NCBI RefSeq assembly: GCF_029945925.1
Contig: NZ_JAQSDN010000065.1
Coordinates: 29,387 to 93,386 of the forward strand
Source: Polaromonas sp.
GTDB lineage: Bacteria > Pseudomonadota > Gammaproteobacteria > Burkholderiales > Burkholderiaceae_C
Direction: 5' to 3'
Length of the DNA stretch: 64,000 nucleotides
Under the pieces are notes generated by a model. It had not been told where the DNA came from, did no database searches, and saw nothing but the letters and a program-made list of their open reading frames with translations. Shown in pieces: positions 31,033-52,131 of the stretch (position 1 is the stretch's first letter; the number at the start of each line of letters is the position of its first letter). The position numbers were made by a program, and so were the translations under genes.

Positions 31033-31042
31033 CAAAGATCAA
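31029..31042 (+). promoter_or_regulatory. Predicted FNR/Anr binding site upstream of narK1
   Basis: TTGAC-AAAG-ATCAA matches the FNR consensus TTGAT-N4-ATCAA at nine of ten positions. It overlaps the narL stop codon and lies 150 bases before the narK1 start, at the head of the nitrate respiration genes. It could also bind a CRP-family NO sensor such as Dnr. Confidence 0.6.
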
Positions 31043-31192: not shown

Positions 31193-32455
31193 ATGGCCTC
31201 TGAACTGGGCAATTCAAGAAAAGCATGGTCGGTGCTGATTGTCAGCACGCTGGCGTTCACCGTCTGCTTCATGGTCTGGATGATGTTCGGCGTGATCGGC
31301 ATCCCGATCAAGAAGATGCTCAACCTCAATGCCACCGAGTTCGGCCTGCTCGCGGCCACGCCGGTGTTGACGGGCTCGCTGATCCGCGTCCCGCTGGGCA
31401 TCTGGACCGACCGCTACGGCGGACGCATCGTCATGGCGATCCTGATGGCCATCACCGTGCCCGCGATCTGGCTCATGAGTTACGCCACGGCCTACTGGCA
31501 TTTTCTGGTGATCGGCCTGTTTGTCGGCCTGGCCGGCGGCTCCTTCTCGGTGGGCACGCCCTATGTGGCGCGCTGGTTCCCGAAAAACCGCCAGGGCATG
31601 GCGATGGGTGTGTACGGCGCCGGCAACTCGGGTGCCGCTGTCAACAAGTTTGTGGCGCCGGTGCTGCTGGTGGCCTTTGGCTGGGCCATGGTGCCGCAGG
31701 TGTATGCGGTCATCATGCTGGCTGCGCTGGTGCTGTTCTGGATGTTCAGCTACAGCGACCCGTCGCACCTGGTGCCCAGCCACGTCAAGTTCAGCGATCA
31801 GCTCAAGGCCCTGAAAGACCCGAAAGTCCTCAAGTACTGCCAGTACTACAGCATCGTGTTCGGTGGTTATGTGGCCCTGTCGCTCTGGATGGTGCAGTAC
31901 TACGTGGGTGAATTCGGCCTCGACATCCGCGTGGCGGCGCTGCTGGCGGCGTGTTTCTCATTGCCGGGCGGTGTGCTGCGCGCCTTCGGCGGCATCCTGT
32001 CCGACAAGTATGGCGCGCACAGCGTGACCTGGTGGGTGATGTGGGTGAGCTGGGTCTGCCTGTTCCTGCTGTCCTACCCGCAGACCGACTTCACCATTCT
32101 CACGGTCAATGGCCCGGCAACCTTTCACATCGGCCTGAACGTCTACACCTTCACGGCGCTGATGTTCATTCTCGGCATCGCCTGGGCCTTCGGCAAGGCC
32201 AGCGTCTTCAAGTACATCAGCGACGACTACGGCGCCAACATCGGCGCGATCAGCGGCATTGTCGGGCTGGCCGGCGGCCTGGGCGGTTTTGTGCTGCCCA
32301 TCATCTTCGGCGGCCTGATGGACCTGACCGGCATCCGCTCCAGCGCCTTCATGTTCATGTACGGCATCGTCTGGGTCTCGCTGATCTGGATGTACTGGAC
32401 CGAGGTGCGCCGCACTGAAGTCATGGGCAAGAACGCGTCCGGCGCGCAAGCCTGA
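31193..32455 (+). CDS. narK1: NarK1-type nitrate transporter (MFS)
   Basis: The 420-residue permease has 12 predicted membrane helices. The first is VLIVSTLAFTVCFMVWMMFGV. The nitrate-signature glycine-rich segment is GAGNSGAAVNKFVAPV, and GIWTDRYGGR is the MFS A-motif after helix 2. Type 1 NarK proteins act as proton/nitrate symporters that start respiration. The start at ATG 31193 has GGAGA upstream; the longer frame from 31082 adds 37 residues without family resemblance. narK2 follows after 26 bases. Confidence 0.9.
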   Translation: MASELGNSRKAWSVLIVSTLAFTVCFMVWMMFGVIGIPIKKMLNLNATEFGLLAATPVLTGSLIRVPLGIWTDRYGGRIVMAILMAITVPAIWLMSYATAYWHFLVIGLFVGLAGGSFSVGTPYVARWFPKNRQGMAMGVYGAGNSGAAVNKFVAPVLLVAFGWAMVPQVYAVIMLAALVLFWMFSYSDPSHLVPSHVKFSDQLKALKDPKVLKYCQYYSIVFGGYVALSLWMVQYYVGEFGLDIRVAALLAACFSLPGGVLRAFGGILSDKYGAHSVTWWVMWVSWVCLFLLSYPQTDFTILTVNGPATFHIGLNVYTFTALMFILGIAWAFGKASVFKYISDDYGANIGAISGIVGLAGGLGGFVLPIIFGGLMDLTGIRSSAFMFMYGIVWVSLIWMYWTEVRRTEVMGKNASGAQA

Positions 32456-32481
32456 AACAGACCCTTTTTCGAGGAAGCACC

Positions 32482-34110
32482 ATGAATACCAAAACCAGTT
32501 CCAGCGTTGACATCACCGACTGGCGTCCCGAGGACGAGCAGTTCTGGGAAAGCACCGGCAAGCGTATTGCCTATCGCAATCTCTGGATCTCCGTGCCCAG
32601 CCTGCTGTGCGGCTTTGCCGTCTGGGGAATGTGGGGCATCATCACGGTGCAGATGCTCAACCTGGGCTTTCCCTTCACCCAGGCCGAACTCTTCACGCTG
32701 ACGGCCATCGCAGGCCTGGCCGGCGCCACCATGCGCATTCCGGCCTCCTTCCTGATCCGGCTGGCCGGCGGGCGCAACACCATCTTCCTGACGACGTCGA
32801 TGCTGCTGGCGCCGGCCATCGGCACCGGCATCGTGCTGCAGCACCCCGAATGGCCGCTCTGGTCCTTCCAGCTGATGGCGCTGTGGTCGGGCGTGGGTGG
32901 CGGCAACTTCGCCAGTTCGATGTCCAACATCAGCACCTTCTTTCCCAAGCGGCTGCAGGGCACGGCGCTCGGCCTCAATGCAGGCCTGGGCAACTTCGGC
33001 GTCACCGCCATGCAGGTCGTCATTCCCCTGGTGATGACCGTCGGCCTCTTCGGCAGTTTCGGAGGCGAATCGATGACGCTGGTCAAGGACAGCGGCTGGA
33101 TCCTCGGGAAAATCACGGCCGGAACGCCGACCTGGATCCAGAACGCTGGCTTCGCCTGGGTGCTTTCGCTGGTGCCGCTGTCGGTCATCTGCTTCTTCGG
33201 CATGAACAACCTGACGACCGTTTCGCCCGCCATCGGCGGCACGATCCCGGCCTTCCTCAAGATCATCTGGCTGTACACCCTGTCGTTTGTGCCGGCCGGT
33301 GTCGGGCTGTACCTCTACCTGCCCAAACCCACGGGGCTGGGCCTGCTCAACATGTGGATCGCCATGCCATTGATTGTGGTGAGCACCCTGATGGTGCTGA
33401 AGGTGACGGCCTTCGGCCCGATGAAGGAAGCCATTGCCAAACAGTTCTCCATTTTCAGCAACAAGCACACCTGGTCGCTGACCATGCTGTACATCGTGAC
33501 CTTCGGTTCCTTCATCGGTTTTTCGATGGCCCTGCCGCTGGCCATCACGGTGATTTTCGGCATCAGCCACGTGCCGGACGCCGCCGGCGTCATGCAGCAC
33601 ACGCTGAAAAACCCGAACGCACCGTCGGCACTGACCTTTGCCTGGATAGGTCCCTTTGTCGGGGCGCTGATCCGGCCCGTGGGCGGCTGGGTCTCGGACA
33701 AGGTCGGCGGTTCCATCGTGACGCAAATCATCTCCGCCATCATGGTGGTGGCCTCCGTGGCGGTGGGTTACGTCATGCTGCTGGCCTACAAGTCGGCCAC
33801 GCCCGAGCAGTACTTCCTGATTTTCATGGTGCTGTTCGTCGTGCTGTTTGCCGCCAGCGGCATCGGCAACGGTTCCACCTTCCGCACGATTGGCGTCATC
33901 TTCGACCGCCAGCAGGCCGGCCCGGTGCTGGGCTGGACCTCGGCCATTGCCGCCTACGGCGCTTTCATCGCCCCGGTGGTGATCGGCGCGCAGATCAAGG
34001 CCGGCACGCCGGAAAACGCCATGTACGGCTTTGCCATCTTTTATGCCCTGTGCCTGGTGCTCAACTGGTGGTTTTACCTGCGCCGCGGCGCCGAGATCAA
34101 AAACCCCTGA
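32482..34110 (+). CDS. narK2: NarK2-type nitrate/nitrite antiporter (MFS)
   Basis: The protein has 542 residues, larger than NarK1, with 12 or more helices and the nitrate signature GLNAGLGNFGVTAMQVVIP. The extended loop between helices (GGESMTLVKDSGWILG) is typical of type 2 NarK, which exchanges nitrate for nitrite. The second nitrate signature corresponds to GIGNGSTFRTIGVIF. NarK1 and NarK2 are separate genes here, while in Paracoccus they are fused. narG follows 42 bases downstream. Confidence 0.9.
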   Translation: MNTKTSSSVDITDWRPEDEQFWESTGKRIAYRNLWISVPSLLCGFAVWGMWGIITVQMLNLGFPFTQAELFTLTAIAGLAGATMRIPASFLIRLAGGRNTIFLTTSMLLAPAIGTGIVLQHPEWPLWSFQLMALWSGVGGGNFASSMSNISTFFPKRLQGTALGLNAGLGNFGVTAMQVVIPLVMTVGLFGSFGGESMTLVKDSGWILGKITAGTPTWIQNAGFAWVLSLVPLSVICFFGMNNLTTVSPAIGGTIPAFLKIIWLYTLSFVPAGVGLYLYLPKPTGLGLLNMWIAMPLIVVSTLMVLKVTAFGPMKEAIAKQFSIFSNKHTWSLTMLYIVTFGSFIGFSMALPLAITVIFGISHVPDAAGVMQHTLKNPNAPSALTFAWIGPFVGALIRPVGGWVSDKVGGSIVTQIISAIMVVASVAVGYVMLLAYKSATPEQYFLIFMVLFVVLFAASGIGNGSTFRTIGVIFDRQQAGPVLGWTSAIAAYGAFIAPVVIGAQIKAGTPENAMYGFAIFYALCLVLNWWFYLRRGAEIKNP

Positions 34111-34152
34111 GCCGCCGCTGGGCCCGTTTTTACCGCTTTACCGGAGAATCAA

Positions 34153-37100
34153 ATGAGTCATTTTCTTGATCGACTGAGCCACTTTTCCAACCCCAGGGAG
34201 TCCTTTTCCGGGGAGCACGGCGTCACCACCGCCGAAGACCGGACCTGGGAAGACGCCTACCGCAACCGCTGGGCGCACGACAAGATCGTGCGCAGCACCC
34301 ATGGCGTGAACTGCACGGGATCGTGTTCGTGGAAGATTTATGTCAAGGGTGGCATCGTCACCTGGGAAACCCAGCAGACCGACTACCCGCGCACGCGCTG
34401 GGACATGCCCAACCACGAGCCGCGCGGCTGTTCGCGCGGTGCCAGCTACAGCTGGTACCTGTACAGCGCCAACCGCGTCAAGTACCCCATGGTGCGCGCG
34501 CGCCTGCTCAAGCACTGGCGTGAGGCGCGTTTGACGCTGCCGCCGGTCGAGGCCTGGGCGGCCGTGGTGCAGGATGATGCCAAGCGGCGCGACTACCAGA
34601 GTGTGCGCGGTCTTGGCGGTTTTGTCCGTTCCAGCTGGGACGAGGTCAACGAGATCATTGCGGCCTCCAACGTCCACACGATCAAGAAGCACGGCGCCGA
34701 CCGCATCATCGGTTTCTCGCCGATCCCGGCGATGTCCATGGTCAGCTACGCCTCCGGTTCGCGTTACCTGTCGCTGATAGGTGGCGTGTGCATGAGTTTT
34801 TACGACTGGTATTGCGACCTGCCTCCGTCCAGCCCCCAGGTCTGGGGCGAGCAGACCGACGTGCCGGAGTCGGCCGACTGGTACAACTCGGGTTTCATCA
34901 TTGCCTGGGGCTCCAACGTGCCGCAGACGCGCACCCCTGATGCACACTTCTTCACCGAAGTCCGTTACAAGGGCACCAAGACCGTCGCGATCACGCCCGA
35001 CTATTCCGAGGTCGCCAAACTCTCCGACCTGTGGCTGCACCCCAAGCAGGGCACCGATGCTGCAGTCGCCATGGCCATGGGCCATGTGATCCTGAAAGAC
35101 TTCTACTTCGGCGGCAACGGCAAGCCGCGTTCGGCCTACTTCGACGACTACGCACGCCGCTACACCGACCTGCCCATGCTGGTCATGCTCAAGGAGCACC
35201 AGCTGGAAAACGGCGAAACCGTCATGGTGCCGGACCGTTATGTGCGCGCGTCCGACTTCAACGGCAAGCTGGGCCAGGCGAACAACCCGGAGTGGAAAAC
35301 CGTGGCCTTCGACGCGCAGGGCAAGGTCGTTCTGCCGCACGGCGCCATCGGCTTTCGCTGGGGCCCGGATGGCCGTGCCGACGCCGGGCAGTGGAACCTG
35401 GAGTCCAAAGAGGCCCGCCAGGGTGACGAGGTCACGCTCAAGCTGTCGGTGATGGAAGGTGATGCACCTGGTTCCGACAGCGCCAAGGTCGGCTTTCCGT
35501 ACTTCGGCGGCATCCCTCATGAGCATTTCCAGAACAACGAGCAGGGCGATGTGCTGGTGCGCACGGTACCGGTGCAGCGCATTTCGCTCGGCAAGGCCGG
35601 TGAGGAGCGCTCGGCCCTGGTGGCGACGGTGTTCGACCTGCAGGTCGCGCAATACGGCATTCCCCGCGGCTTGCCCGGTGAGCTGGCCGCCGCCGACTTT
35701 GACGACAACACCCCCTACACCCCGGCCTGGCAGGAGCAGATCACCGGTGTGCCGCGCGACCAGATCATCGCCGTCGCACGCCAGTTTGCCGACAATGCCG
35801 ACAAGACCGAGGGCCGGTCCATGGTCATCATCGGCGCCGGCATGAACCACTGGTACCACAGTGACATGAACTACCGCAGCGTCATCAACATGCTGATGAT
35901 GTGCGGCTGCATCGGCAAGAGCGGTGGCGGCTGGGCGCACTACGTGGGCCAGGAAAAACTGCGGCCGCAGACCGGCTGGACGCCGCTGGCCTTCGCGCTC
36001 GACTGGATCCGCCCACCCCGGCAGATGAACTCCACCAGCTTCTTTTATGCTCACACCGACCAGTGGCGCTACGAGAAGCTCGGCGTGGACGAGGTGTTGT
36101 CCCCACTGGCCGACAAAAAGCTCTACGGCGGCAGCATGATCGACTACAACGTGCGCGCCGAGCGCATGGGCTGGTTGCCGAGCGCGCCGCAATTGCAGAC
36201 CCACCCGATGCAGGTGGTCAAGGACGCGCAGGCCGCGGGCCTGGATGCCAAGGACTATGTCGTCAAGTCGCTGAAGGACGGCTCGCTCAGGATGAGCTGC
36301 GAGGACCCGGACCATCCGGATAACTGGCCGCGCAACATGTTTGTCTGGCGCTCCAACATCATCGGTTCATCGGGCAAGGGCCACGAGTACTTCCTCAAGC
36401 ATCTGCTGGGTACGGACAACGGCGTTCAGGGCAAGGACCTGGGGGCCGAAGAAGGCAAGCCCGAGGAAGTGGTCTGGCACGACAAGGCGCCCGAGGGCAA
36501 GCTGGACCTGCTGGTCACGCTCGACTTCCGCATGAGCACAACCTGCCTGTACTCCGACATCGTGCTACCGACCGCAACCTGGTACGAAAAGAACGACCTC
36601 AACACCAGCGACATGCACCCCTTCATCCATCCGCTGTCCACCGCGGTGGACCCGGTGTGGCAATCGAAAAGCGACTGGGAAATCTACAAGGGCTTCGCGA
36701 AAAAATTCAGCGAGCTGTGCGAAGGCCATCTCGGTGTCGAGAAGGAAATGGTGCTGACTCCGGTGATGCACGATACCCCGGGCGAGCTGGCCCAGCCTTT
36801 TGAAGTCAAGGACTGGAAGCGTGGCGAGTGCGAACTGGTGCCCGGCAAGACGGCGCCCCAGATGCAGGTGGTCGAACGCGACTATCCCAACGTCTACAAA
36901 CGTTTCACGGCCGTCGGCCCCCTGCTCAACAAGGTGGGCAACGGCGGCAAGGGAATTGCCTGGAACACCGAAACCGAAGTGCGGCAGCTCGGCGAACTCA
37001 ACGGCCTGGTGACCGAGCCCGGCGTGACCCAGGGCATGCCGCGTATCAACAGCGACATCGACGCCTGCGAAATGGTTCTGCAGCTTGCGCCTGAAACCAA

Positions 37101-37971
37101 CGGCCATGTGGCGGTCAAGGCCTGGGCGGCCTTGGGCAAGCAGACCGGCCGTGAGCACACCCACCTGGCGCTGCACCGCGAGGACGAGAAAATCCGCTTT
37201 CGCGACATCCAGGCGCAACCGCGCAAGATCATCAGCTCGCCGACCTGGAGCGGCATCGAATCGGAAACCGTGTCGTACAACGCCGGCTACACCAATGTGC
37301 ATGAACTGATCCCATGGCGCACCCTCACGGGCCGCCAGCAGTTCTACCAGGACCACCCGTGGATGCTGGCTTTCGGCGAGGGCCTGGCCAGCTACCGGCC
37401 GCCGGTGAACCTGAAGGCCACCGCCGGGGTGCACGGTATTCGCACCAACGGCAACACCGAGATCTTGCTGAACTTCATCACGCCGCACCAGAAGTGGGGC
37501 ATCCACTCGACGTACACCGACAACCTGTTGATGCTGACGCTGAGCCGGGGCGGGCCCATCATCTGGCTCAGTGAAGATGACGCCAAACTCATCGGCGTGG
37601 AGGACAACGACTGGATCGAGGCCTACAACGTCAACGGCGCGATTGCCGCGCGGGCTGTCGTCAGCCAGCGCGTCAAGCCCGGCATGGTGATGATGTACCA
37701 CGCGCAGGAAAAAATCGTCAACACCCCGGGTTCGGAGATCACCGGCCAGCGCGGCGGCATCCACAACTCGGTGACGCGCATCGTGCTCAAGCCGACGCAC
37801 ATGATCGGCGGCTACGCACAGCTTTCCTACGGCTTCAACTACTACGGGACCATAGGCACCAACCGCGACGAATTCGTCGTGGTGCGCAAGATGGACAAGG
37901 TGGACTGGCTGGACACGCCGCGCGATGACGACAAAGCGTTTGCCGTGCAACAAATGGGAGAGGCAGCATGA
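34153..37971 (+). CDS. narG: Respiratory nitrate reductase alpha subunit
   Basis: NarG is the catalytic molybdenum-bisMGD subunit and faces the cytoplasm. It has 1,272 residues. The N-terminal [4Fe-4S] site FS0 has the His/Cys pattern HGVNCTGSCSW, and the downstream RGCSRGASYSWYLY is typical. The Mo ligand Asp lies in the SFYDWYCDLPPSSP region. No Tat signal with a cleavage site is seen, as expected for NarG. The four-base overlap with narH indicates coupled translation. Confidence 0.97.
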   Translation: MSHFLDRLSHFSNPRESFSGEHGVTTAEDRTWEDAYRNRWAHDKIVRSTHGVNCTGSCSWKIYVKGGIVTWETQQTDYPRTRWDMPNHEPRGCSRGASYSWYLYSANRVKYPMVRARLLKHWREARLTLPPVEAWAAVVQDDAKRRDYQSVRGLGGFVRSSWDEVNEIIAASNVHTIKKHGADRIIGFSPIPAMSMVSYASGSRYLSLIGGVCMSFYDWYCDLPPSSPQVWGEQTDVPESADWYNSGFIIAWGSNVPQTRTPDAHFFTEVRYKGTKTVAITPDYSEVAKLSDLWLHPKQGTDAAVAMAMGHVILKDFYFGGNGKPRSAYFDDYARRYTDLPMLVMLKEHQLENGETVMVPDRYVRASDFNGKLGQANNPEWKTVAFDAQGKVVLPHGAIGFRWGPDGRADAGQWNLESKEARQGDEVTLKLSVMEGDAPGSDSAKVGFPYFGGIPHEHFQNNEQGDVLVRTVPVQRISLGKAGEERSALVATVFDLQVAQYGIPRGLPGELAAADFDDNTPYTPAWQEQITGVPRDQIIAVARQFADNADKTEGRSMVIIGAGMNHWYHSDMNYRSVINMLMMCGCIGKSGGGWAHYVGQEKLRPQTGWTPLAFALDWIRPPRQMNSTSFFYAHTDQWRYEKLGVDEVLSPLADKKLYGGSMIDYNVRAERMGWLPSAPQLQTHPMQVVKDAQAAGLDAKDYVVKSLKDGSLRMSCEDPDHPDNWPRNMFVWRSNIIGSSGKGHEYFLKHLLGTDNGVQGKDLGAEEGKPEEVVWHDKAPEGKLDLLVTLDFRMSTTCLYSDIVLPTATWYEKNDLNTSDMHPFIHPLSTAVDPVWQSKSDWEIYKGFAKKFSELCEGHLGVEKEMVLTPVMHDTPGELAQPFEVKDWKRGECELVPGKTAPQMQVVERDYPNVYKRFTAVGPLLNKVGNGGKGIAWNTETEVRQLGELNGLVTEPGVTQGMPRINSDIDACEMVLQLAPETNGHVAVKAWAALGKQTGREHTHLALHREDEKIRFRDIQAQPRKIISSPTWSGIESETVSYNAGYTNVHELIPWRTLTGRQQFYQDHPWMLAFGEGLASYRPPVNLKATAGVHGIRTNGNTEILLNFITPHQKWGIHSTYTDNLLMLTLSRGGPIIWLSEDDAKLIGVEDNDWIEAYNVNGAIAARAVVSQRVKPGMVMMYHAQEKIVNTPGSEITGQRGGIHNSVTRIVLKPTHMIGGYAQLSYGFNYYGTIGTNRDEFVVVRKMDKVDWLDTPRDDDKAFAVQQMGEAA

Positions 37972-39500
37972 AGGTACGCGCACAAATCGGCATGGTGCTG
38001 AACCTGGACAAGTGCATCGGTTGCCACACCTGTTCGGTCACCTGCAAAAACGTCTGGACCAGCCGGCCCGGCATGGAATACGCCTGGTTCAACAACGTCG
38101 AAACCAAGCCCGGCATCGGTTACCCCAAGGAGTGGGAAAACCAGGACAAATGGAACGGCGGCTGGGTGCGCAAGGCCGACGGCTCCATCGAGCCGCGCCA
38201 GGGCGGCAAGTGGAAGCTGCTGATGCGCATCTTCTCCAACCCGAACATGCCGCAGATCGATGACTACTACGAGCCCTTCACATTCGACTACGACCATCTG
38301 CAGTCGGCGCCGGAAATGAAGGCTACACCGACGGCGCGGCCACGCAGCCTGATCACCGGCAAGCGCATGGAAAAAATCGAGTGGGGCCCGAACTGGGAAG
38401 AGATCCTCGGCGGCGAGTTTTCCAAGCGCAGCAAGGACGCCAACCTGGCGAACTTTGACCAGGTTCAGAAAGACATGGTCGGCCAGTTCGAAAACACCTT
38501 CATGATGTATTTGCCGCGCCTGTGCGAGCACTGCCTGAACCCGGCCTGTGTGGCGTCCTGCCCCTCGGGCTCGATCTACAAGCGCGAGGAAGACGGCATC
38601 GTGCTGATCGACCAGGACAAATGCCGCGGCTGGCGCATGTGTGTCTCGGGCTGTCCGTACAAGAAAATCTATTACAACTGGAAAAGCGGCAAGGCCGAGA
38701 AATGCACTTTCTGCTACCCGCGTATTGAAGCCGGCCAGCCGACCGTCTGCAGCGAAACCTGTGTGGGCCGCATCCGTTACCTCGGTGTGGTGCTGTATGA
38801 CGCCGACCGCATCCAGGAAGCGGCCAGCGTGGAAGACGACAAGGACCTGTACCAGGCCCAGCTCGACATTTTCCTGGACCCGAACGATCCGAAAGTGATT
38901 GAACAGGCGCGCAAGGACGGCATTCCCGAAGCCTGGCTGGAAGGCGCCCGCCGCAGCCCGGTCTACAAGATGGCTGTGGAGTGGAAGGTGGCGCTGCCGC
39001 TGCACCCCGAGTACCGCACGCTGCCCATGGTCTGGTATGTGCCACCGCTGTCGCCGATCACCTCGGCGGCCAACGCTGGCCAGATCGGCATCAACGGCGA
39101 ACTGCCCGACATCGCGCAGATGCGCATTCCCGTGCAGTACCTGGCCAACCTGCTGACTGCCGGTGACACGGCACCGGTGATCCGCTCACTGCAGCGCATG
39201 CTGGCGATGCGGTCCTACCAGCGCAGCAAACATGTGGACCAGGTGCAGAACCTGGCGGTGCTGGAGCAGGCTGGGCTCACTGTGGCCGAAGTCGAGGAGA
39301 TGTACCACATCATGGCGATTGCCAACTACGAAGACCGCTTCGTGATCCCGAGCACCCACCGCGAATACGCCGAGAACGCATTCGACATGCGCGGCGGCTG
39401 CGGCTTTACCTTCGGCAACGGTTGCTCCGACGGCGCCAGCGACGTCAGCCTGTTCGGCGGCAACAAGAAACGCACTATTCCCATCAAGGTGGAGGTCTGA
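37968..39500 (+). CDS. narH: Respiratory nitrate reductase beta subunit
   Basis: This 510-residue electron-transfer subunit has four Cys clusters: CIGCHTCSVTCKNVW, CEHCLNPACVASCP, CRGWRMCVSGCPYKK and CTFCYPRIEAGQPTVCSETC. The Trp in CRGWRMC replaces a Cys and marks the [3Fe-4S] cluster. It shuttles electrons from NarI hemes to NarG. narJ begins three bases after the stop. Confidence 0.97.
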   Translation: MKVRAQIGMVLNLDKCIGCHTCSVTCKNVWTSRPGMEYAWFNNVETKPGIGYPKEWENQDKWNGGWVRKADGSIEPRQGGKWKLLMRIFSNPNMPQIDDYYEPFTFDYDHLQSAPEMKATPTARPRSLITGKRMEKIEWGPNWEEILGGEFSKRSKDANLANFDQVQKDMVGQFENTFMMYLPRLCEHCLNPACVASCPSGSIYKREEDGIVLIDQDKCRGWRMCVSGCPYKKIYYNWKSGKAEKCTFCYPRIEAGQPTVCSETCVGRIRYLGVVLYDADRIQEAASVEDDKDLYQAQLDIFLDPNDPKVIEQARKDGIPEAWLEGARRSPVYKMAVEWKVALPLHPEYRTLPMVWYVPPLSPITSAANAGQIGINGELPDIAQMRIPVQYLANLLTAGDTAPVIRSLQRMLAMRSYQRSKHVDQVQNLAVLEQAGLTVAEVEEMYHIMAIANYEDRFVIPSTHREYAENAFDMRGGCGFTFGNGCSDGASDVSLFGGNKKRTIPIKVEV

Positions 39501-39503
39501 ACC

Positions 39504-40930: not shown

Positions 40931-40957
40931 CCCCTCACAATGAACCAGGGACCCTCC

Positions 40958-43753: not shown

Positions 43754-46700
43754 AACGCGATCAGTTCGGCCGGCCTCAGGACCTGACGGCCACCCAGCCC
43801 ATCAGCCAGGATGTGCTGAAGGAAAAATACCTCAAGCCCGGCGAGTCGGGTGTGGAAGACCTGTACCGGCGCGTGGCGCGGGCCCTGGCTTCGGTCGAGC
43901 CGGAAGCGGAGCGCGCCAGACACGAGGCGCTGTTCCTCGAGAACCTGCACGCCGGCGCAATAGGCGCCGGCCGCATCATGAGTGCCGCGGGCACGGCCAT
44001 CCAGGCGACCCTGATCAACTGCTTTGTGCAGCCCGTGGGCGACTGTATCCAGGGCGTCGATGACGGCGGCTACCCCGGCATTTACGAGGCCCTGCGCGAA
44101 GCGGCCGAAACCATGCGGCGCGGCGGCGGCGTGGGTTACGATTTTTCACGCATCCGGCCGCGCGGCGCGGAGGTCAAGGCCACGGCCTCCATGGCTTCCG
44201 GTCCGTGCAGCTACATCAATGTGTTTGACCAGTCCTGTTCCACGGTGGAGAGCGCGGGTTCGCGGCGCGGGGCGCAGATGGGCGTGCTTCGCATCGACCA
44301 CCCGGATGTGCACGAGTTCATCACCGCCAAGCGCACACCCGGGCGCTGGAACAACTTCAATGTGTCGGTCGGCATGCCGGACGCGTTCATGCACGCCCTG
44401 GCCGAAGACCAGCCCTGGGAGCTGGTGCACAAGGCCAAACCCGGCGCCCCGCTGATCGCGCAAGGCGCGTTCCAGCGTGCCGACGGCCTGTGGGTCTACC
44501 AGACGGTCGCGGCGCGCGAGTTGTGGGACACCGTGATGCATTCGGCCTACGACTTTGCCGAGCCCGGCATCCTGTTCCTGGACCACATCAACCAGGACAA
44601 CAACCTGCGTTACTGCGAAGAAATTGCGGCGACCAATCCCTGCGTGACGGCCGACACCTGGGTAATGACGACGGATGGACCGGCGCAGGTATCGGACCTC
44701 GTGGGGCGGCCCTTCAGTGCGGTGGTTGATGGCAAGTCCTACGCGGTGAAAAGCGACGGTTTTTTCAAAACAGGACACAAACCCGTGTTCGTTTTGCGCA
44801 CGCTCGAAGGGCAGGCCTTGCGCCTCACCGCCGACCACCGGGTGCGTCGTGTGGCGCGCAGAACCCGGTTCGCGCTGGAGGCCGGGTGGACTGAAGCTGC
44901 GCAACTGAAGGCGGGCGACGAAATCCTGCTGCACGATCACCGCGCACTGGGCGGGTGGGAGGGGGCCGGTACGCAGGCCGAAGGTTATTTGCTGGGGCTG
45001 CTGATCGGCGATGGCACCCTCAAGAGCGACAAGGCGGTAATTTCGGTGTGGGCGCCTGAACTCAAATTGGCGGCAAATGGTGCGGTGGCCTATGCGCAGA
45101 CAGGTGCTGCCGGTATCGTGCACGCCGCCGAGGCCGCAGCCGCCACTTTGTCGCACCGGTCCGACTTCCGGGGCTTTCAGCGGCCCGTGGCTGGACGGGG
45201 CGAGGCGCGCATGGCCTCAGGTGCTGTGCGGCGCCTGGCTCTGGACATGGGCATGCGTCCCGGTCACAAGACAATTACCGCCGCCATGGAAAAGGCGTCG
45301 TCCGTCTTTGCAGAGGGGCTTCTGCGTGGCTTGTTTGATGCCGATGGTTCTGTGCAGGGTTCGCAGGAAAAAGGCGTCAGCCTGAGGTTGTCCCAAAGCG
45401 ATCCGGGTTTGCTTCAGACGGCGCAGCGCATGTTGCTGCGTCTGGGCATTGTCTCCACCATTTACCCCAACCGGCGTCTGGCACAGGCACGGCCACTTCC
45501 CAACGGGCGCGGTGGTTTGACGGTTTATGAGACGGCTTCGCAGCATGAGCTGGTCATCAGCGGGGACAACCTGAGGATGTATGCGGAGCGCGTCGGGTTT
45601 GCCGATACCGACAAGGCCGAGCGGCTGGACCATGCGCTCGGCAGCTACAAACGCAGCCTCAACCGCGAGCGCTTCACGGCCACGGTCGAGTCGCTGACCG
45701 AGGACGGCTGCGAGGACGTTTTCGATGTGACCGTGGCTGACATCCATGCCTTTGACGCCAACGGCCTGTACGTGCACAACTGCGGCGAGCAACCGCTTCC
45801 GCCCTACGGCTGCTGCGACCTTGGGCCCATCATCCTCACGCGTTTTGTGCGCCACCCCTTCGGCTTCAATGGCGCGCCGGACTTTGATTTCCAGGCTTTT
45901 GCGAAATCGGTGACCACCCAGGTGCGTGCGCTTGACAACGTGCTCGACGTGACCTTCTGGCCGCTGCCGCAGCAGCAGGCCGAGTCGGCCGCCAAGCGCC
46001 GCATCGGCGTCGGTTTCACCGGCCTGGGCAATGCGCTGGCCATGTTGTGCCTGCGTTACGACGCGCCCGAGGGCCGCGAGATGGCGGCGCGTATCGCCGT
46101 CGCCATGCGCGATGCGGCCTACGCTGCGTCGGTCGCGCTGGCGAAAGAAAAAGGCGCGTTCCCGAAGTTCGACGCCGACGGCTATCTCGCCTCAGGCACC
46201 TTTGCCAGCAGGCTGCCGGCCGCCCTGCAGCAATCCATACGCGCCAACGGCATCCGCAACAGCCACCTGCTGTCGATTGCACCGACCGGCACGGTCAGCC
46301 TGGCGTTTGCCGACAACGCGTCCAACGGCATCGAGCCGCCGTTTTCGTGGATGTACCGGCGCAAGAAACGCGAGTCTGACGGCAGCACCACCGAATACGC
46401 GGTGGAAGACCATGCCTGGCGCCTGTACCGCGAACTCGGCGGCAACGTGGACAAACTGCCGGGCTACTTTGTTTCGGCGCTCGAGATGTCGGCGGACAGC
46501 CACATTGGCATGATGGAAGCGGTGCAGCCCTTTGTGGACACGGCGATCTCCAAAACCGTCAATGTGCCGGCCGATTACGCCTACGAGGATTTCAAGAGCC
46601 TGTACCAGCAAGCCTGGCGCGCCAGACTCAAGGGCCTGGCCACCTACCGGCCCAATGCGATTCTGGGTTCGGTGCTGGAGACCCATGCTCCCGCCGCCGC

Positions 46701-47313
46701 GCCGGCCGCGGCGGTGCCCATGGATCCGATGCGCACGGTGATCGAGAGCCGTCCCAAGGGCGCCTTGTCGGCGGTGGCCGAAAAGGTCGACTACTGGACG
46801 CAGGAAGGGCACAAGACGCTGTACATCGTGGTGTCTTTCCTGCCGGTGCCGTCGGCCAGCGGCGAGGGCACGGTTGAACGTGCCATCGAGTTTTTCATGC
46901 CGGTGGGGCAAAGCGGCGAGTCGCAGCAGTGGATCACCTCCAGCATGCGCATGCTGTCGCTGGCCGCGCGCGGCGGTTTCCTCGAGCGTGCGCTCAGCGA
47001 CATGCGCAAGGTCGCCTGGGACCGTGGCCCGGTGCGGCTGGGCACCTATGAGAAAACCGACGGCACACGCGTGCCGTTGTGGCACGACTCGGAAGTCGCC
47101 GCCATTGCCTATGCGGTGCAGAACATCATTGCGCGGCGCGCCCGACAGGGCGTTGCCAGCGCAGCACCGGTCGTGGATCCCCAGGTCGACATGGCGCTCG
47201 CGCCGCCGGTGATGGCGGGCAAGAAGTGCAGCGAATGTGGCGCCCACGCGGTGATCCGCAAGGATGGTTGCGACTATTGCACCCAGTGTGGCCACCTGGG
47301 CGTTTGCGGATGA
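43750..47313 (+). CDS. nrdJ: Adenosylcobalamin-dependent (class II) ribonucleotide reductase with intein
   Basis: The precursor has 1,187 residues, of which 380 (298-677) are an intein, leaving an enzyme of ~807. It reduces ribonucleotides to deoxyribonucleotides with a B12-generated thiyl radical and needs no oxygen. Extein motifs: VGYDFSRIRPRG, the split CEEIAATNP / CGEQPLPPYGCC, FTGLGNALAM and SIAPTGTVSLAF. The C-terminus has a zinc-ribbon-like CSECG-CDYCTQCG-CG array. ATG 43750 overlaps the previous stop (ATGA), and the stop overlaps nnrS. Its place in the nar operon fits dNTP supply in anaerobic growth. Confidence 0.95.
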   Translation: MKRDQFGRPQDLTATQPISQDVLKEKYLKPGESGVEDLYRRVARALASVEPEAERARHEALFLENLHAGAIGAGRIMSAAGTAIQATLINCFVQPVGDCIQGVDDGGYPGIYEALREAAETMRRGGGVGYDFSRIRPRGAEVKATASMASGPCSYINVFDQSCSTVESAGSRRGAQMGVLRIDHPDVHEFITAKRTPGRWNNFNVSVGMPDAFMHALAEDQPWELVHKAKPGAPLIAQGAFQRADGLWVYQTVAARELWDTVMHSAYDFAEPGILFLDHINQDNNLRYCEEIAATNPCVTADTWVMTTDGPAQVSDLVGRPFSAVVDGKSYAVKSDGFFKTGHKPVFVLRTLEGQALRLTADHRVRRVARRTRFALEAGWTEAAQLKAGDEILLHDHRALGGWEGAGTQAEGYLLGLLIGDGTLKSDKAVISVWAPELKLAANGAVAYAQTGAAGIVHAAEAAAATLSHRSDFRGFQRPVAGRGEARMASGAVRRLALDMGMRPGHKTITAAMEKASSVFAEGLLRGLFDADGSVQGSQEKGVSLRLSQSDPGLLQTAQRMLLRLGIVSTIYPNRRLAQARPLPNGRGGLTVYETASQHELVISGDNLRMYAERVGFADTDKAERLDHALGSYKRSLNRERFTATVESLTEDGCEDVFDVTVADIHAFDANGLYVHNCGEQPLPPYGCCDLGPIILTRFVRHPFGFNGAPDFDFQAFAKSVTTQVRALDNVLDVTFWPLPQQQAESAAKRRIGVGFTGLGNALAMLCLRYDAPEGREMAARIAVAMRDAAYAASVALAKEKGAFPKFDADGYLASGTFASRLPAALQQSIRANGIRNSHLLSIAPTGTVSLAFADNASNGIEPPFSWMYRRKKRESDGSTTEYAVEDHAWRLYRELGGNVDKLPGYFVSALEMSADSHIGMMEAVQPFVDTAISKTVNVPADYAYEDFKSLYQQAWRARLKGLATYRPNAILGSVLETHAPAAAPAAAVPMDPMRTVIESRPKGALSAVAEKVDYWTQEGHKTLYIVVSFLPVPSASGEGTVERAIEFFMPVGQSGESQQWITSSMRMLSLAARGGFLERALSDMRKVAWDRGPVRLGTYEKTDGTRVPLWHDSEVAAIAYAVQNIIARRARQGVASAAPVVDPQVDMALAPPVMAGKKCSECGAHAVIRKDGCDYCTQCGHLGVCG
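44641..45780 (+). mobile_element. Intein with LAGLIDADG homing endonuclease inside nrdJ
   Basis: This in-frame 380-residue insert starts with Cys (CVTADTWV) and ends VHN directly before the extein Cys of CGEQPL, so both splice junctions are canonical. Block B shows TADHRVRRV (TxxH). The two LAGLIDADG motifs are YLLGLLIGDGTL at ~115 and LLRGLFDADGSV at ~227 of the intein. Block F is EDVFDVTVADIHAF. The residue after the intein is the presumed thiyl-radical Cys of the reductase, a classic highly conserved insertion point. Confidence 0.95.
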
Positions 47314-48632
47314 GTGAGCGCCCGGTCATCGCCCTGCGGGTGAGGCCGGGCAAACCCACGGCCAGCGAGCGGGCCAGGGTGGATCGCCGCTGGCGCGCCA
47401 GCCATCTGCTGCTGGCGCCGCACCGGCTGGGTTTTTTCTTGGCCATGGTGGTGCTGGTGGCCGCAGGCAGCTGGTGGGCGCTGGTGCAGCTGGACCGCAT
47501 CAGTCCGGTGCTGAGCCTGCCCTATGCGCTGTCGCCTTCGCTGGCCCATGGTGCGGTCATGACCTTTGGTTTTATTCCTCTGTTCTTCGCGGGTTTCCTG
47601 TTCACGGCCGGGCCGAAATGGCTGGGCGTGCAGCCCTTGGTGCCCCGGCAGCTTCGCGTGCCACTGCTGCTGCAGGCAACGGGCTGGCTGCTGTGCCTGG
47701 CCGGCGCGCACCTGCATGGCCTGACGGCATTGGCCGGGCTGGTGCTGGCCTGTGCGGGGCTATCCTGGGTAACGGCCCTGTTCTGGGGGCTGATCCGGCG
47801 CAGCCATGCCGACGACCAGGTGCATGCGCGCACGGCAGGCGCGGCCTGCATCGTGGGTTGCGTGAGTCTGGCCGGTCTGGCACTCGGTCTGTTTCTGGGC
47901 AAGCCCGACGTGGCGCGCGCCTGCGTGCTCACCGGCTTGTGGGGGTTTGTGGTGGTGGTCTACGTCTCGGTGGCACACCGCATGATTCCGTTTTTCACCT
48001 CCAGTGCCATGCCGCGCATCGACGCCTGGCGCCCGTTCTGGGTGTTGTGGCTGATGCTGGCCGTCGCGGCGGCCGAGGTCGTGGCGGTGTGGGTCGAGCT
48101 GGAGGGCCCCCTGCAAGGCACGGCGGGCACGGTCTGGAGCGTGGCGCGCGGTGCCTTCGAGCTGGCCGCGGGCGGCGTGCTGCTCTGGCTCGCTGTTGTC
48201 TGGGGGCTGGTGCAAAGCCTCAAGAACCGTTTGCTGGCCATGCTGCACATCGGGTTTTTCTGGCTCGGCCTGGCGCTGGTGCTCGGGGGTCTTGCGCAGT
48301 GGCTGGGTCTGGTGCAGGACGCGCCGGTGCTGGCCCTTGGGTCGCTGCATGCGCTGACCATGGGTTGCCTGGCGTCGCTGATGCTGGCCATGGTCACGCG
48401 GGTGTCCTGTGGCCACAGCGGCCGCGCGCTGGTGGCCGACAACATGATCTGGACGCTGTTCTGGCTGCTGCAGGCCGCGACGCTGCTGCGCATTGCGGCT
48501 GCCGCGCAAACGGCCCTCGCGGGCTGGCTGCTGCTGGCGGCGGCGCTGTTGTGGGCGGGTGTCATGGGGGTGTGGGGTGTGCGGCTGGGCAACTGGTATG
48601 GCCGCCTGCGTGCTGACGCGCGGCCCGGTTGA
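47310..48632 (+). CDS. nnrS: NnrS family heme-copper membrane protein
   Basis: This 440-residue protein has about 12 hydrophobic helices and conserved His residues in AHGAVMTFGFIPLFFAGF, YVSVAHRMIPFFTSSAMP and LHALTMGCLASLMLAMVTRVSCGHSGR. NnrS proteins protect against nitrosative stress and are found with denitrification genes. The ATG overlaps the nrdJ stop by four bases. Direct metal binding is inferred from the family. Confidence 0.92.
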   Translation: MSERPVIALRVRPGKPTASERARVDRRWRASHLLLAPHRLGFFLAMVVLVAAGSWWALVQLDRISPVLSLPYALSPSLAHGAVMTFGFIPLFFAGFLFTAGPKWLGVQPLVPRQLRVPLLLQATGWLLCLAGAHLHGLTALAGLVLACAGLSWVTALFWGLIRRSHADDQVHARTAGAACIVGCVSLAGLALGLFLGKPDVARACVLTGLWGFVVVVYVSVAHRMIPFFTSSAMPRIDAWRPFWVLWLMLAVAAAEVVAVWVELEGPLQGTAGTVWSVARGAFELAAGGVLLWLAVVWGLVQSLKNRLLAMLHIGFFWLGLALVLGGLAQWLGLVQDAPVLALGSLHALTMGCLASLMLAMVTRVSCGHSGRALVADNMIWTLFWLLQAATLLRIAAAAQTALAGWLLLAAALLWAGVMGVWGVRLGNWYGRLRADARPG

Positions 48633-48642
48633 GGGCGTACTG

Positions 48643-49323: not shown

Positions 49324-49334
49324 CTGGATGATTC

Positions 49335-49739
49335 ATGGACATTCTGAGTTTTGACGACCTGCTGCAGGCAGCCCGGGCCCAGCCCGAGCCGCAGCGCCTG
49401 CTGTTTGTGTTCACCGGTGTGGAGCTGCCCGAGGACAGCACGCCGGTGCAGCGCGAACGTTTTGAAGCCGGCCAGGGTGGTGCGCTGGTGCCGCTGATGT
49501 GTGTGGACAAGCGGCCGGAAGATCTGAGCTCGTTTGCGGCGCTTGTGCAGGAGTCCAGCCAGTTCGGCCACCACTGGGGCCTGGTGTTCGCCGCCGCGCT
49601 GGGGGGCTCGGTGAACCGCGCGCCCACCACCGAAGATGCCGAGGAGCCGCTGCAACGCATGGTCGAGTCCATCAAGCAGGGGCAGATTGGCGCTTTCATC
49701 CCGTTTGACCCGCAGGGCCAACCGGTGCAGTTCGGCTGA
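49335..49739 (+). CDS. Small conserved-looking protein of unknown function
   Basis: This 134-residue soluble acidic protein starts MDILSFDDLLQAARAQPEPQ and contains LLFVFTGVELPED, GGALVPLMCVDKRPEDL and RMVESIKQGQIGAFIPFD. I recall similar proteins being labelled ribonucleotide reductase subunit alpha in betaproteobacterial genomes, but it has no visible catalytic motif of such an enzyme. It begins 11 bases after the nitroreductase and 1 base before the hemerythrin-like gene, so it belongs to the operon. Function is open. Confidence 0.85.
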   Translation: MDILSFDDLLQAARAQPEPQRLLFVFTGVELPEDSTPVQRERFEAGQGGALVPLMCVDKRPEDLSSFAALVQESSQFGHHWGLVFAAALGGSVNRAPTTEDAEEPLQRMVESIKQGQIGAFIPFDPQGQPVQFG

Positions 49740-49740
49740 C

Positions 49741-50322
49741 ATGGGCACGGTGCGCCGCACTGAACGGCCTGATGCCGTGCCCGGCTTTCAAGCGCCTGGG
49801 GCCGGTTTTGAAGCGCCTTTCGAGATGCTGGGTGCTTGCCACGAGCGGGTCGAGCGCATGCTGGCCTTGTTGGCACGCCTGCAGCAGCATCTGCTGGAGC
49901 GCGGCTGCGACGATGCCGCGCGGCAGGCCGCGCGTGACGTGATGCGTTACTTCGACCTCGCCGCGCCGCTGCACCACCAGGACGAGGAGATGCACGTGTT
50001 CCCGCCGCTGCTGGCCGGACCGGACGCCGGCCTGCGCGCCCTGGTGCAGCGCCTGCTGCAGGACCACCGCGACATGGAAGCCGCCTGGCCCCTGGCGCGC
50101 AGTGTGCTGCAGGCCATCACCGACAGCCCGGCTGCGGACTGGACGCCGCTGGACCCTGCCCGGACCGCTGCGCTGAGCCGGTTTGCCGCACTGTACGTGC
50201 GCCACCTGGCGGACGAGGACCAGCTGGCCTATCCCGCAGCGCAGGCCACGCTGACGGGCGACGCCCTGCGGGCCATGAGCCAGGACATGATGCAACGCCG
50301 CGGCGTGCCCGCCCGGAAGTGA
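49741..50322 (+). CDS. Hemerythrin-like (HHE) cation-binding protein
   Basis: The 193-residue helical protein has likely di-iron ligands in LGACHERVERML, LHHQDEEMHVFPPLL, LLQDHRDMEAAW and RHLADEDQLAYP. HHE proteins bind oxygen, NO or repair iron-sulfur centres (RIC type). The start at ATG 49741 has only one base between it and the previous stop. A role in NO handling fits its position in the nar cluster but is not proven. Confidence 0.88.
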   Translation: MGTVRRTERPDAVPGFQAPGAGFEAPFEMLGACHERVERMLALLARLQQHLLERGCDDAARQAARDVMRYFDLAAPLHHQDEEMHVFPPLLAGPDAGLRALVQRLLQDHRDMEAAWPLARSVLQAITDSPAADWTPLDPARTAALSRFAALYVRHLADEDQLAYPAAQATLTGDALRAMSQDMMQRRGVPARK

Positions 50323-50364
50323 CGGCCGTGCTCCCCGCCGCATGAATACGGGCAAAATAGGGGC

Positions 50365-51687
50365 ATGAACGCGCCTGATCTTTCCAACACGCTGACCCGA
50401 AGCAGCGAAGCCGACGCCGAACTGGCAGGCCTGATGGCGGTCATGGGTTCCAAGGCAAAATCGGCCTCAGCCCAGACGGCGCGCGCGCCGGCAGCTATCA
50501 AAAACAGAGCGCTTTTGACGCTGGCCGGCTTGCTGCGGCAAAACGTTGCGCCTTTGCAGGCGGCCAACCAGCGTGACCTCGAACGGGCGGCCGCGGCCGG
50601 CCTGGCCGGCCCCATGCTGGACCGCCTCAAGCTCGGGGCCAAGGACATCGCCACGGTGGCCGCGGGTTGCGAGCAACTCGCCGCCATGCCCGACGTGATC
50701 GGCGAGATCATCGGCATGAAGCAGCAGCCCAGCGGCATCCGCGTCGGCCAGATGCGTGTGCCCATCGGCGTGTTCGGCATGATTTACGAAAGCCGGCCCA
50801 ACGTCACGATCGAAGCCGCGTCGCTGGCCATCAAAAGCGGCAACGCCTGCATCCTGCGCGGCGGCTCCGAAGCGATCGAGTCGAACAAGGCGCTGGCGGC
50901 CCTGGTGCATCAGGCGCTGCAGGACGCCGGCCTGCCGGCAGAGGCCGTGCAGCTGGTGCCCACCATCGACCGTGCGGCGGTGGGTCTTTTGATCACCATG
51001 CCGCAGTATGTGGACGTCATCATTCCGCGCGGCGGCAAGGGCCTGATCGAGCGCATCAGCCGCGACGCGAAAGTGCCGGTCATCAAGCACCTGGACGGCA
51101 ACTGCCATGTCTATGTGGACGACCCCTGCGACATGGCCATGGCCGTGGCCGTGGCCGACAACGCCAAGACCAGCAAATACAGCCCCTGCAACGCCAGCGA
51201 AGGACTGCTGGTGGCGCGCGGCATCGCGGCTGACTTCCTGCCGAAAATCGGCGCCATCTACGCCGCCAAGGGGGTGGAGATGCGCTGCGACGCCGAAGCC
51301 CGGGCCCTGCTGGCCCCGGTGCCAAACGCCATCGTCCAGCCCGCCAGCGAGCAGGACTGGTATGAGGAATACCTGGCGCCGGTGATCAGCATCAAGGTGG
51401 TGGCCGGTGTGGACGAAGCAATTGCCCACATCAACCAGTACTCCAGCCACCACACCGACGCCATCCTCACGCGCGACCACATGCATGCCCAGCAATTCCT
51501 GCGCGAGGTCGATTCGGCCAGTGTCATGGTGAATGCGAGCACCCGCTTCGCCGACGGTTTCGAGTTTGGCCTGGGCGCTGAAATCGGCATCTCCACGGAC
51601 AAGTTCCATGCCCGCGGCCCGGTCGGCATCGAGGGCCTGACCTCGCTGAAATACGTGGTGCTGGGCAACGGGGAAGTGAGGCTGTGA
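50365..51687 (+). CDS. proA: Gamma-glutamyl phosphate reductase
   Basis: ProA performs the second step of proline biosynthesis. The 440-residue protein is of aldehyde dehydrogenase fold with the catalytic C275 in [15 protein letters not shown], and [38 protein letters not shown] and [14 protein letters not shown] are typical. Residues ~32-50 ([19 protein letters not shown]) are encoded by a full copy of the dispersed AGCTAT element in reverse. CAAAAT ends 6 bases before the ATG, so it may have its own leaderless transcript. Confidence 0.95.
50457..50512 (-). repeat. Dispersed AGCTAT element, copy 6, inside proA
   Basis: On the minus strand it reads GCTCTGTTTTTGATAGCTGC, then CGGCGC and GCCGTC, then GGGCTGAGGCCGATTTTGC, matching the family in order and spacing. 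AGCTATCAAAAACAGAGCG is identical to the copy at 53596-53614. Confidence 0.75.
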
Positions 51688-51689
51688 TC

Positions 51690-52019
51690 ATGTCTTTCCG
51701 GATTTTTGACAGCCGTTTCGCGCCGGCCGGTCTGTTTCTCGCGGCCTTGGCACTGCCGCTGGCGGGCCAGGCCGCTTCACCGTCGGCCGTCGACATGGGT
51801 TGCTACAACTGCCGCGGCGCCTACCCGCGCGGCGAGGCGCCGGGTTTTCCGCAGATCGCGGCCAAATACGCCGAGCGCAAGCCTGACGCGGCGGCCGAGC
51901 AGCGGCTGGCCGACAAGCTGCGCCCGGGCGAATGGCTGGAGCACATCGATGCTCACGAAAGGCTCAGCCCCGAAACCGCCAGGGCCCTGATCCTCTGGCT
52001 GGTCGAAGGCGCGAAATAG
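51690..52019 (+). CDS. Degenerate periplasmic cytochrome c-like protein
   Basis: The 109-residue precursor has a signal peptide (LFLAALALPLAGQAA). The heme-attachment site reads MGCYNCRGAYPRG, with C38, C41 and Arg42 where a His is required in CxxCH. The rest (FPQIAAKYAER, WLEHIDAHERLSPETARALILWLVEGA) looks like a small class I cytochrome c. The codon is CGC, one transition from CAC. The start could also be GTG 51684, overlapping proA. Confidence 0.8.
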   Translation: MSFRIFDSRFAPAGLFLAALALPLAGQAASPSAVDMGCYNCRGAYPRGEAPGFPQIAAKYAERKPDAAAEQRLADKLRPGEWLEHIDAHERLSPETARALILWLVEGAK

Positions 52020-52131
52020 CCGTCACGAGCCGCGTGCCGGGCTTCTTCGGGGAAGGGCAGCTTGCCTTGAATGCGGCGTGATCGCCTCCACCTCCTAGAA
52101 TTCGCTTCCAATACTTATAAAAGAGGGCCGC

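Follow-up and report, generated by a model that had tools for sequence, protein, structure and literature searches.

Why should the gene for an oxygen-independent ribonucleotide reductase lie within a run of genes for nitrate respiration? The question is raised by a stretch of 64,000 nucleotides from Polaromonas sp. (assembly GCF_029945925.1, contig NZ_JAQSDN010000065.1, positions 29,387 to 93,386), referred to below as the window, in which nrdJ follows narGHJI on the same strand. The genome from which it comes (G000) amounts to 4.78 Mb in 71 contigs, and its nearest relatives by ProA are Polaromonas. We think it probable that a nitrate block lying between holA and proA is served by one Anr/Dnr-type promoter, which would drive nar together with nrdJ and genes that may protect against nitric oxide (NO), and that the reductase is made as an intein-bearing precursor. 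A preliminary description had taken sixteen genes, from narK1 to a cytochrome-like gene, as a single run, and had suggested that anaerobic growth on nitrate co-induces the reductase and NO-protective proteins. The observation is largely right, with corrections given below. The reading is plausible and is strengthened by comparison with relatives; its dependence on nitrate is weakened by lineages that carry nrdJ and lack nar.

The features of the locus are as follows (position, strand, identity and evidence).

27276..28376, +, holA (DNA polymerase III delta), left host flank; aligned to locus L038, whose gene scores DNA_pol3_delta
28378..30309, +, narX sensor kinase; PilJ/HAMP/HisKA_3/HATPase; start set by inspection at the ATG one base past the holA stop
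30319..31032, +, narL response regulator; Response_reg and GerE
31029..31042, no strand, Anr/Dnr/FNR-type box TTGACAAAGATCAA, overlapping the narL stop; sole zero-mismatch TTGAYNNNNRTCAA in the 64-kb window
31193..32455, +, narK1; MFS_1; TIGR00886 201.0 bits, under the curated cut-off of 311.7
32482..34110, +, narK2; MFS_1; TIGR00886 265.2 bits, under the same cut-off
34153..37971, +, narG; Molybdopterin, Nitr_red_alph_N
37968..39500, +, narH; Fer4_11, Nitr_red_bet_C
39504..40211, +, narJ; Nitrate_red_del
40208..40930, +, narI; Nitrate_red_gam
40940..41818, +, ppi, parvulin-type peptidyl-prolyl isomerase (PPIase); Rotamase
41815..42507, +, can, beta-type carbonic anhydrase; Pro_CA
42473..43753, +, nmo, nitronate monooxygenase-like, start uncertain; NMO
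43750..44640, +, nrdJ N-extein, ending ...EEIAATNP; Ribonuc_red_lgC/lgN; TIGR02504 538.5 bits for the whole protein
44641..45780, +, intein of 380 residues, CVTADTW...LYVHN, with motifs LLGLLIGDG and LRGLFDADG; LAGLIDADG_3; Intein_splicing below cut-off
45781..47313, +, nrdJ C-extein, starting at the presumed catalytic cysteine (CGEQ); aligns to residue 322 of Thermotoga maritima NrdJ (1xje)
47310..48632, +, nnrS; NnrS 204.5 bits
48643..49323, +, nitroreductase; Nitroreductase
49335..49739, +, 134-residue protein, linked to nar/nrdJ; no Pfam or NCBIfam match; model confidence (predicted local distance difference test, pLDDT) 90.3
49741..50322, +, hemerythrin-like, last gene of the block; Hemerythrin 67.5 bits; start by inspection
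50365..51687, +, proA, right host flank, outside the unit; NF001221 583.7 bits
51684..52019, +, 111-residue cytochrome-like protein with CXXCR, outside the unit; homologues after proA in L100, L109 and L111

A nitrate respiration block between holA and proA

All sixteen genes from 31193 to 52019 do lie on the plus strand in the order listed, as seen from open reading frames and Pfam and NCBIfam matches, and the same families bear out the earlier assignments of the non-core genes (nitronate monooxygenase, carbonic anhydrase, NnrS, nitroreductase, hemerythrin-like). The four NarGHJI subunits all score over their Pfam cut-offs, and TIGR00886 is still among the best families for each of the two NarK proteins. 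The fifteenth gene, left unnamed before, is proA (NF001221 cut-off 289). Four-base overlaps are found at narG/narH, narJ/narI, ppi/can, nmo/nrdJ, nrdJ/nnrS and proA/111-residue gene, and there are gaps of 26 bases between narK1 and narK2, 42 between narK2 and narG, 3 between narH and narJ, 10 between nnrS and the nitroreductase gene, 11 from there to the 134-residue gene, 1 from there to the hemerythrin gene (ATG at 49741) and 42 between the latter and proA. Thus the spacing first described, 1–42 bases or four-base overlaps, stands for most junctions; narI and ppi, given as overlapping, are separated by 9 bases, and can and nmo overlap by up to 35 bases, a feature missed before, the nmo start being uncertain. 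Since the same order recurs in relatives, it is evidently beyond chance.

The run from narK1 to the cytochrome-like gene does not hold as a unit, as same-strand genes precede it (holA, narX, narL) and follow it (gshA, kup). When aligned with empty sites, the extra DNA begins close to the holA stop (28376) and ends shortly before proA (~50345). Thus narX to the hemerythrin gene is a segment that has been inserted or lost, and proA and the 111-residue gene are host neighbours. The natural unit is evidently this block of ~22 kb (~28377–50345) between holA and proA. A scan of named genomes with ProA, from which the best 80 of 579 loci were kept, found holA at 47 of these, 26 of them having it no more than 250 bases from proA; the two are adjacent in Polaromonas JS666 (L072) and CF318 (L071) and in several Rhodoferax, Limnohabitans and Curvibacter loci. 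Most of these best 80 loci have gshA and kup 3′ of proA, and 16 have nrdJ upstream of it. By this comparison proA and the 111-residue gene evidently belong to an older host neighbourhood, holA-proA-gshA-kup, which counts against their inclusion in the unit first proposed. Among nar-bearing genomes of the genus, holA lies directly before narX in 11 of 17 stretches taken upstream of narG, and the other six show no holA, at least partly because they are too short.

The 111-residue protein is homologous to cytochrome-like proteins, as had been suggested, and homologues follow proA in L100, L109 and L111 with no nar gene seen there. Its own motif is CYNCRG and not the haem motif CXXCH. The homologues have CXXCH (CYSCHG or CYNCHG) in all seven rows, representing five distinct genomes, two of them fetched twice; the arginine that replaces the haem-binding histidine in the window reflects either real decay or an assembly error.

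A predicted class II ribonucleotide reductase

The nrdJ reading frame encodes 1187 residues from the ATG at 43750, intein included. TIGR02504 matches the whole protein in two stretches at 538.5 bits against a cut-off of 399.95, upholding the earlier assignment to class II; in the family, certain class I genes score close to that cut-off, well under 538.5 bits. Class II reductases have an active-site NxCxE motif and a cysteine-rich C-terminal tail. The first is present as NP|CGEQ across the intein, and the tail reads KKCSECG...CDYCTQCGHLGVCG. In T. maritima NrdJ the aligned counterpart of the first C-extein residue is residue 322, which we take to be the thiyl-radical (catalytic) cysteine. By these features the product is evidently a class II ribonucleotide reductase, and is predicted to depend on cobalamin; CobS and one cobalamin riboswitch are found elsewhere in the genome. 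No NRDD match, the mark of a class III reductase, was found in G000, and five of 61 genomes of the genus have one. Contig C70 carries one other reductase alpha gene, presumably of class I. Additional distant NrdJ-like genes, 47–54% identical, are found on other contigs in G043 (L056) and G026 (L057).

Linkage of nar and nrdJ in relatives

How far is the arrangement preserved? We compared 61 genomes of the genus and 200 of the family, the latter mostly one or two per genus. In the genus, tallied by hand and leaving out partial reductase matches (e.g. G056), narG is present in 23 genomes. A full NrdJ, borne out by tblastn in every case, is present in 31, among them 21 of the 23 with narG; G021 is tallied as lacking narG, though its locus L052 has narHJI. 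The two are linked in 18 of the 21, 14 by narG coordinates and four by narI, narJ or narH beside nrdJ near contig ends.

In the family narG is found in 83 genomes (of 84 matches, G092 being dropped as below cut-off). Among the matches listed, nrdJ occurs in 76 of these 83 and in 51 of the 117 lacking narG (Fisher odds ratio 14, p 5e-13, ignoring phylogeny). Here nrdJ was scored present by an uninterrupted TIGR02504 match of at least 480 bits (105 genomes) or an intein match (24), two being shared, giving a union of at least 127; the next TIGR02504 matches, at ~406 bits and below, are seemingly class I, and weaker or interrupted ones fall outside the listing. The 24, out of 25 genomes matched, exclude G211 (33%, partial) and the weaker second matches of G111 and G068; the intein match was checked to lie inside nrdJ in ten (G000 and the genomes of L139–L147), and four of the other 14 are at 28–31% identity. 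Again among the matches listed, 31 of the 76 genomes with both have nrdJ no more than 16 kb from narG; simple arithmetic on a ~4.5-Mb genome gives a chance expectation of less than one such case. At 24 of the 31 linked loci, read besides the window, nrdJ is on the same strand, downstream of narGHJI in 16 and directly upstream of narXL in eight; in six of the 24 (L152, L160–L163, L166) NrdJ is more divergent, ~59–69% identical. Linked genomes G102, G160, G174, G177, G195 and G212 were counted, with only short nrdJ loci read. The neighbourhood is thus conserved in the genus, and in the family in two arrangements, so that one outcome named beforehand as fatal to the reading, a lack of conservation in relatives, is not what is found. 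Searching by title, abstract start or passages, we found no description of a nar-nrdJ cluster; the search covered best-ranked papers with few from subscription journals, and is weak evidence of absence.

A candidate promoter upstream of narK1

The only zero-mismatch TTGAYNNNNRTCAA in the window, at 31029–31042, stands ~165 bases upstream of narK1. Comparison with 17 relatives, one cut off by a contig end, left 16 that could be read, and 12 of these have a zero-mismatch box 163–192 bases upstream of narK1, with varying N4 centres. Even with one mismatch allowed, no such site occurs in the 600 bases before nrdJ in the window, and the window as a whole yields neither an Rfam match nor an NrdR-box-like site. 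No sigma-70-type site is found in 36000–55000 (shuffle mean 2.6), and terminator-like sites are near chance (19 against 14.6, standard deviation 4.4). The genome encodes Crp/FNR-family proteins, one of which (L200) has a cysteine cluster, CSTCHLRDLCLPC, that we take to be FNR-like.

In the reading that we favour, low oxygen with nitrate or NO would activate the Anr/Dnr-type promoter before narK1, driving NarK and NarGHJI, and read-through of the closely spaced genes would provide NrdJ, NnrS, nitroreductase, the 134-residue protein and the hemerythrin. Mature cobalamin-dependent NrdJ would then make deoxynucleoside triphosphates (dNTPs) without oxygen, in a genome where no class III enzyme was found. 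From the arrangement of genes and box, anaerobic co-induction of nar and nrdJ is likely.

How does this compare with known systems? The order of a regulator pair, two NarK-type transporters, GHJI and a PPIase is, we presume, that of the Pseudomonas-type narXL-narK1K2GHJI cluster; unlike in that cluster, can, nmo, nrdJ, nnrS and the genes for nitroreductase, 134-residue protein and hemerythrin come next. For the class II reductase gene nrdJ of P. aeruginosa, PMC4860495 reports induction by nitrate and NO that requires Anr, Dnr and the box TTGA(T/C)N4(A/G)TCAA, narL having no effect. There the box is in the nrdJ promoter, whereas here the zero-mismatch box is before narK1, with nrdJ ~12.7 kb downstream. 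Another report places nnrS among members of the NO-responsive regulon, with no nrdJ, nrdD or ‘ribonucleotide’ found in its main text (PMC1274295). In Cupriavidus eutrophus H16 an oxygen-independent reductase is needed for denitrifying growth and class II can stand in, added B12 replacing NrdDG most likely through NrdJ; a difference is its class III nrdDG on a megaplasmid (both from PMC2864759). The same source gives, for C. metallidurans CH34, narGHJI at Rmet_2074–2077, narXL at Rmet_2086/7 and NrdJ at Rmet_2130, which are not adjacent. The window would thus present in cis a link between nitrate respiration and oxygen-independent dNTP synthesis that has been described in trans, and it recurs in two gene orders.

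Alternatives to joint expression

A number of points weigh against joint expression from narK1. The putative read-through from narK1 to nrdJ would span ~12.6 kb. Three genomes of the genus have narG and nrdJ unlinked, ~37 kb apart in G016 and on different contigs in G029 and G035, and 45 of the 76 family genomes with both do not have them within 16 kb, nine being farther apart on one contig and 36 having them on separate contigs, which mostly does not allow linkage to be read. The box near narK1 is absent in four of the 16 readable relatives; in L194 it is at the narL end, 0.8 kb before narK1, and none was found upstream of narK1 in L182, L193 or L195. In the nar-linked L034 a zero-mismatch box lies 839 bases ahead of nrdJ; L025, whose one-mismatch box is 385 bases upstream of that gene, is one of six loci with one-mismatch sites within 600 bases of it (with L039, L047, L050, L053 and L055). 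With two mismatches allowed, TTGATN4ATCAA occurs more often across the window than expected (20 times against 8.8), so that weak matches to the box mean little.

The split in G016 (L026, L027) has narGHJI-ppi-can and nmo-nrdJ on one contig, as if an insertion had divided the cluster near can.

Further observations against it come from loci with nrdJ and no nar. There are five (L038, L039, L040, L049, L050), in at least three places on the extein tree. In P. jejuensis NBRC 106434 (L038, also L074) holA and nrdJ are joined by ~100 bases with a gapped resemblance to the nmo 3′ end; no credible nmo was found there by protein-level search. In L039 an intact nrdJ is preceded by asparaginase and BLUF genes and, before these, by fragments of narK1, narI, ppi and can; L040, the sister of L039 in the extein tree (support 100/98), has narK1 and can fragments. 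L049 and L050 (also L079) have holA and nrdJ with no nar genes or remnants in the stretch read; these genomes are 81 and 86% complete and the loci contiguous. Judged by the remnants, nar has evidently been lost in two of the at least three nar-less lineages. NapA was not found in G005, G019, G046 or G060, G001 giving a weak partial match, and G057, a single contig, has nrdJ with neither narG nor NapA. Thus nrdJ is not tied to nitrate, and this limits the reading first offered. G057 carries two nrdJ copies with equal scores (L041, L042), 43 kb apart.

Could nrdJ then be a general reductase for low oxygen or stress, with its own expression, its place between holA and proA being historical and its closeness to nar without regulatory meaning? 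The nrdJ genes lying between holA and proA with no nar (L038/L074, L050/L079), the remnants of block genes beside nrdJ (L038–L040) and the missing NapA all fit such a view, as does L050, where the nrdJ match is preceded by one-mismatch Anr/Dnr-type sites at 97 and 43 bases and by one with zero mismatches at 1576. Shared history at one address fails to explain why nar and nrdJ are neighbours on the same strand in many genera and in two gene orders, and the 600 bases before nrdJ in the window have, as noted, no Anr/Dnr-type site even with one mismatch allowed, the window as a whole having no NrdR-type box. We consider this explanation rather unlikely. The lineages that have lost nar and kept nrdJ provide natural controls.

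It is very unlikely, in our judgement, that what preserves the cluster is movement as a block, in the manner of a selfish operon, and not joint expression. Genomes of one genus either have the block or lack it at the same position, which is empty in JS666 and CF318, and similar gene sets occur in other genera of the family; the conserved promoter box and the close or overlapping gene starts argue against this view, and such movement would not exclude joint expression.

An intein at the presumed catalytic cysteine of NrdJ

The preliminary description missed an intein that occupies residues 315–694 of the nrdJ frame, 380 residues between NP and CGEQ. LAGLIDADG_3 scores 83.9 bits against a cut-off of 22.5, and Intein_splicing falls narrowly under its cut-off (33.6 against 35.8 bits, E 4e-8). 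Inteins are marked by Cys1, a TxxH block, a C-terminal HN and Cys+1, and all are present here: C1, LTADHR, LYVHN and the cysteine of CGEQ. The LAGLIDADG motifs keep their acidic residues, as LLGLLIGDG at 117 and LRGLFDADG at 228. Solved inteins match it weakly.

By hand tally, 10 of the 31 nrdJ-bearing genomes of the genus have an intein at the catalytic-cysteine site, eight of the window type, and an insert at the identical site is found in the window and 20 further rows (19 distinct genomes, two fetched twice). Polaromonas strain OV174 is a nar-bearing isolate with the intein. A second type at the same site, in L029 (G024) and L044 (G020), is ~30% identical and ends GQ, not HN; by eye it is closer to the SPbeta NrdE intein.

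The intein is mobile. Between the window and L023 the exteins are 95 and 94% identical in DNA and the intein only 80%, synonymous divergence being 0.87 in the intein against 0.25 in the C-extein. The extein tree places the window with the intein-less L030, L032 and L035 (support 89/92), and L023 with the intein-less L037 (95/92); in the tree of the intein itself the window joins L062 (99/95) and L034 (100/100). In approximately unbiased (AU) tests, of clades picked after the trees were seen, the intein data reject a window and L023 clade (p 4e-4), and the exteins reject a clade of window, L034 and L062 (p 2e-5) and one of all window-type carriers (p 1e-4). Intein presence changes ten times on a 32-row extein tree from which long rows L042 and L047 and duplicate genomes were left out. 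The ratio of nonsynonymous to synonymous change (dN/dS) over 36 pairs is 0.07–0.17 in the endonuclease part and 0.07–0.19 in the splicing part, indicating purifying selection in both. Together with the two alleles at one site, the tree conflict, the ten changes and this selection give the picture of a homing parasite. An active, mobile homing element fits, with splicing and cleavage predicted.

In G021 intein-less and intein-bearing nrdJ lie on different contigs (L052, L053), suggesting two copies or a mixed bin.

Inteins as a rule occupy conserved sites (PMC2814812). Those of SPbeta phage bnrdE (NC_001884.1, L178) and Miltoncostaea NrdE (L179) are 26.1 and 30.2% identical to the nrdJ intein, start CVTGET... 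and, as here, sit directly before the C-extein cysteine (SNL|C...TGN|CSE). Thus an intein of this kind, at this site, is already known; unlike here, the host is NrdE, a class Ib alpha chain, and the inteins end GN, not HN. Upstream of its matched intein, the Miltoncostaea plasmid NrdE seemingly has a second intein-like insert, of smaller size.

The consequence for the reading first offered, which took no account of the intein, is that NrdJ activity would depend on intein removal. With a selfish intein immediately before the catalytic cysteine the precursor is presumably inactive, and splicing would excise the intein and free that cysteine, which would itself be the C+1 nucleophile of the reaction. 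An intein on the catalytic cysteine, polymorphic among close relatives, offers a compact system in which to ask whether splicing limits or gates ribonucleotide reduction.

Might the intein, beyond being a parasite, act as a switch through which redox, NO or metal state holds back or permits NrdJ activity? Both splicing nucleophiles are cysteines, C+1 being the presumed catalytic one, and in Aquifex a class I R2 construct with its intein had higher iron occupancy and activity (PMC8772380). Intein-less relatives keep the same operon, and the ten changes, conflicting trees, constrained endonuclease and two alleles at one site fit a homing parasite, so that we hold a switch to be highly improbable. 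Still less credence goes to a domesticated or exploited intein in which oxidation or nitrosylation of Cys1 and Cys+1 would hold NrdJ, the sole oxygen-independent reductase found in this genome, inactive as a precursor during an oxic–anoxic shift or an NO burst, Cys+1 being its presumed thiyl-radical residue; this, if true, would mean that dNTP synthesis, and hence replication, is licensed after translation in nitrate-respiring cells.

The 134-residue protein

The conserved 134-residue neighbour is a concrete target. It has no Pfam or NCBIfam match up to E 1, and its model is confident (pLDDT 90.3) with no clear relative in the PDB. It occurs in 52 of the 200 family genomes, 48 of which have narG and 48 nrdJ, and its gene is within 16 kb of narG or nrdJ in 38 of the 52. 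Across 25 sequences, that of the window included, 42 columns are invariant. Seven plasmid records match it; two have no feature there and five, one of them distant (30%), bear the name ‘ribonucleotide reductase subunit alpha’. We rejected that identity, as no reductase domain was found in the protein.

In L047, L152, L160 and L161 a longer, divergent NrdJ (~60–65% identical) has the 134-residue gene divergently beside it. This placement suggests that the two may be directly connected.

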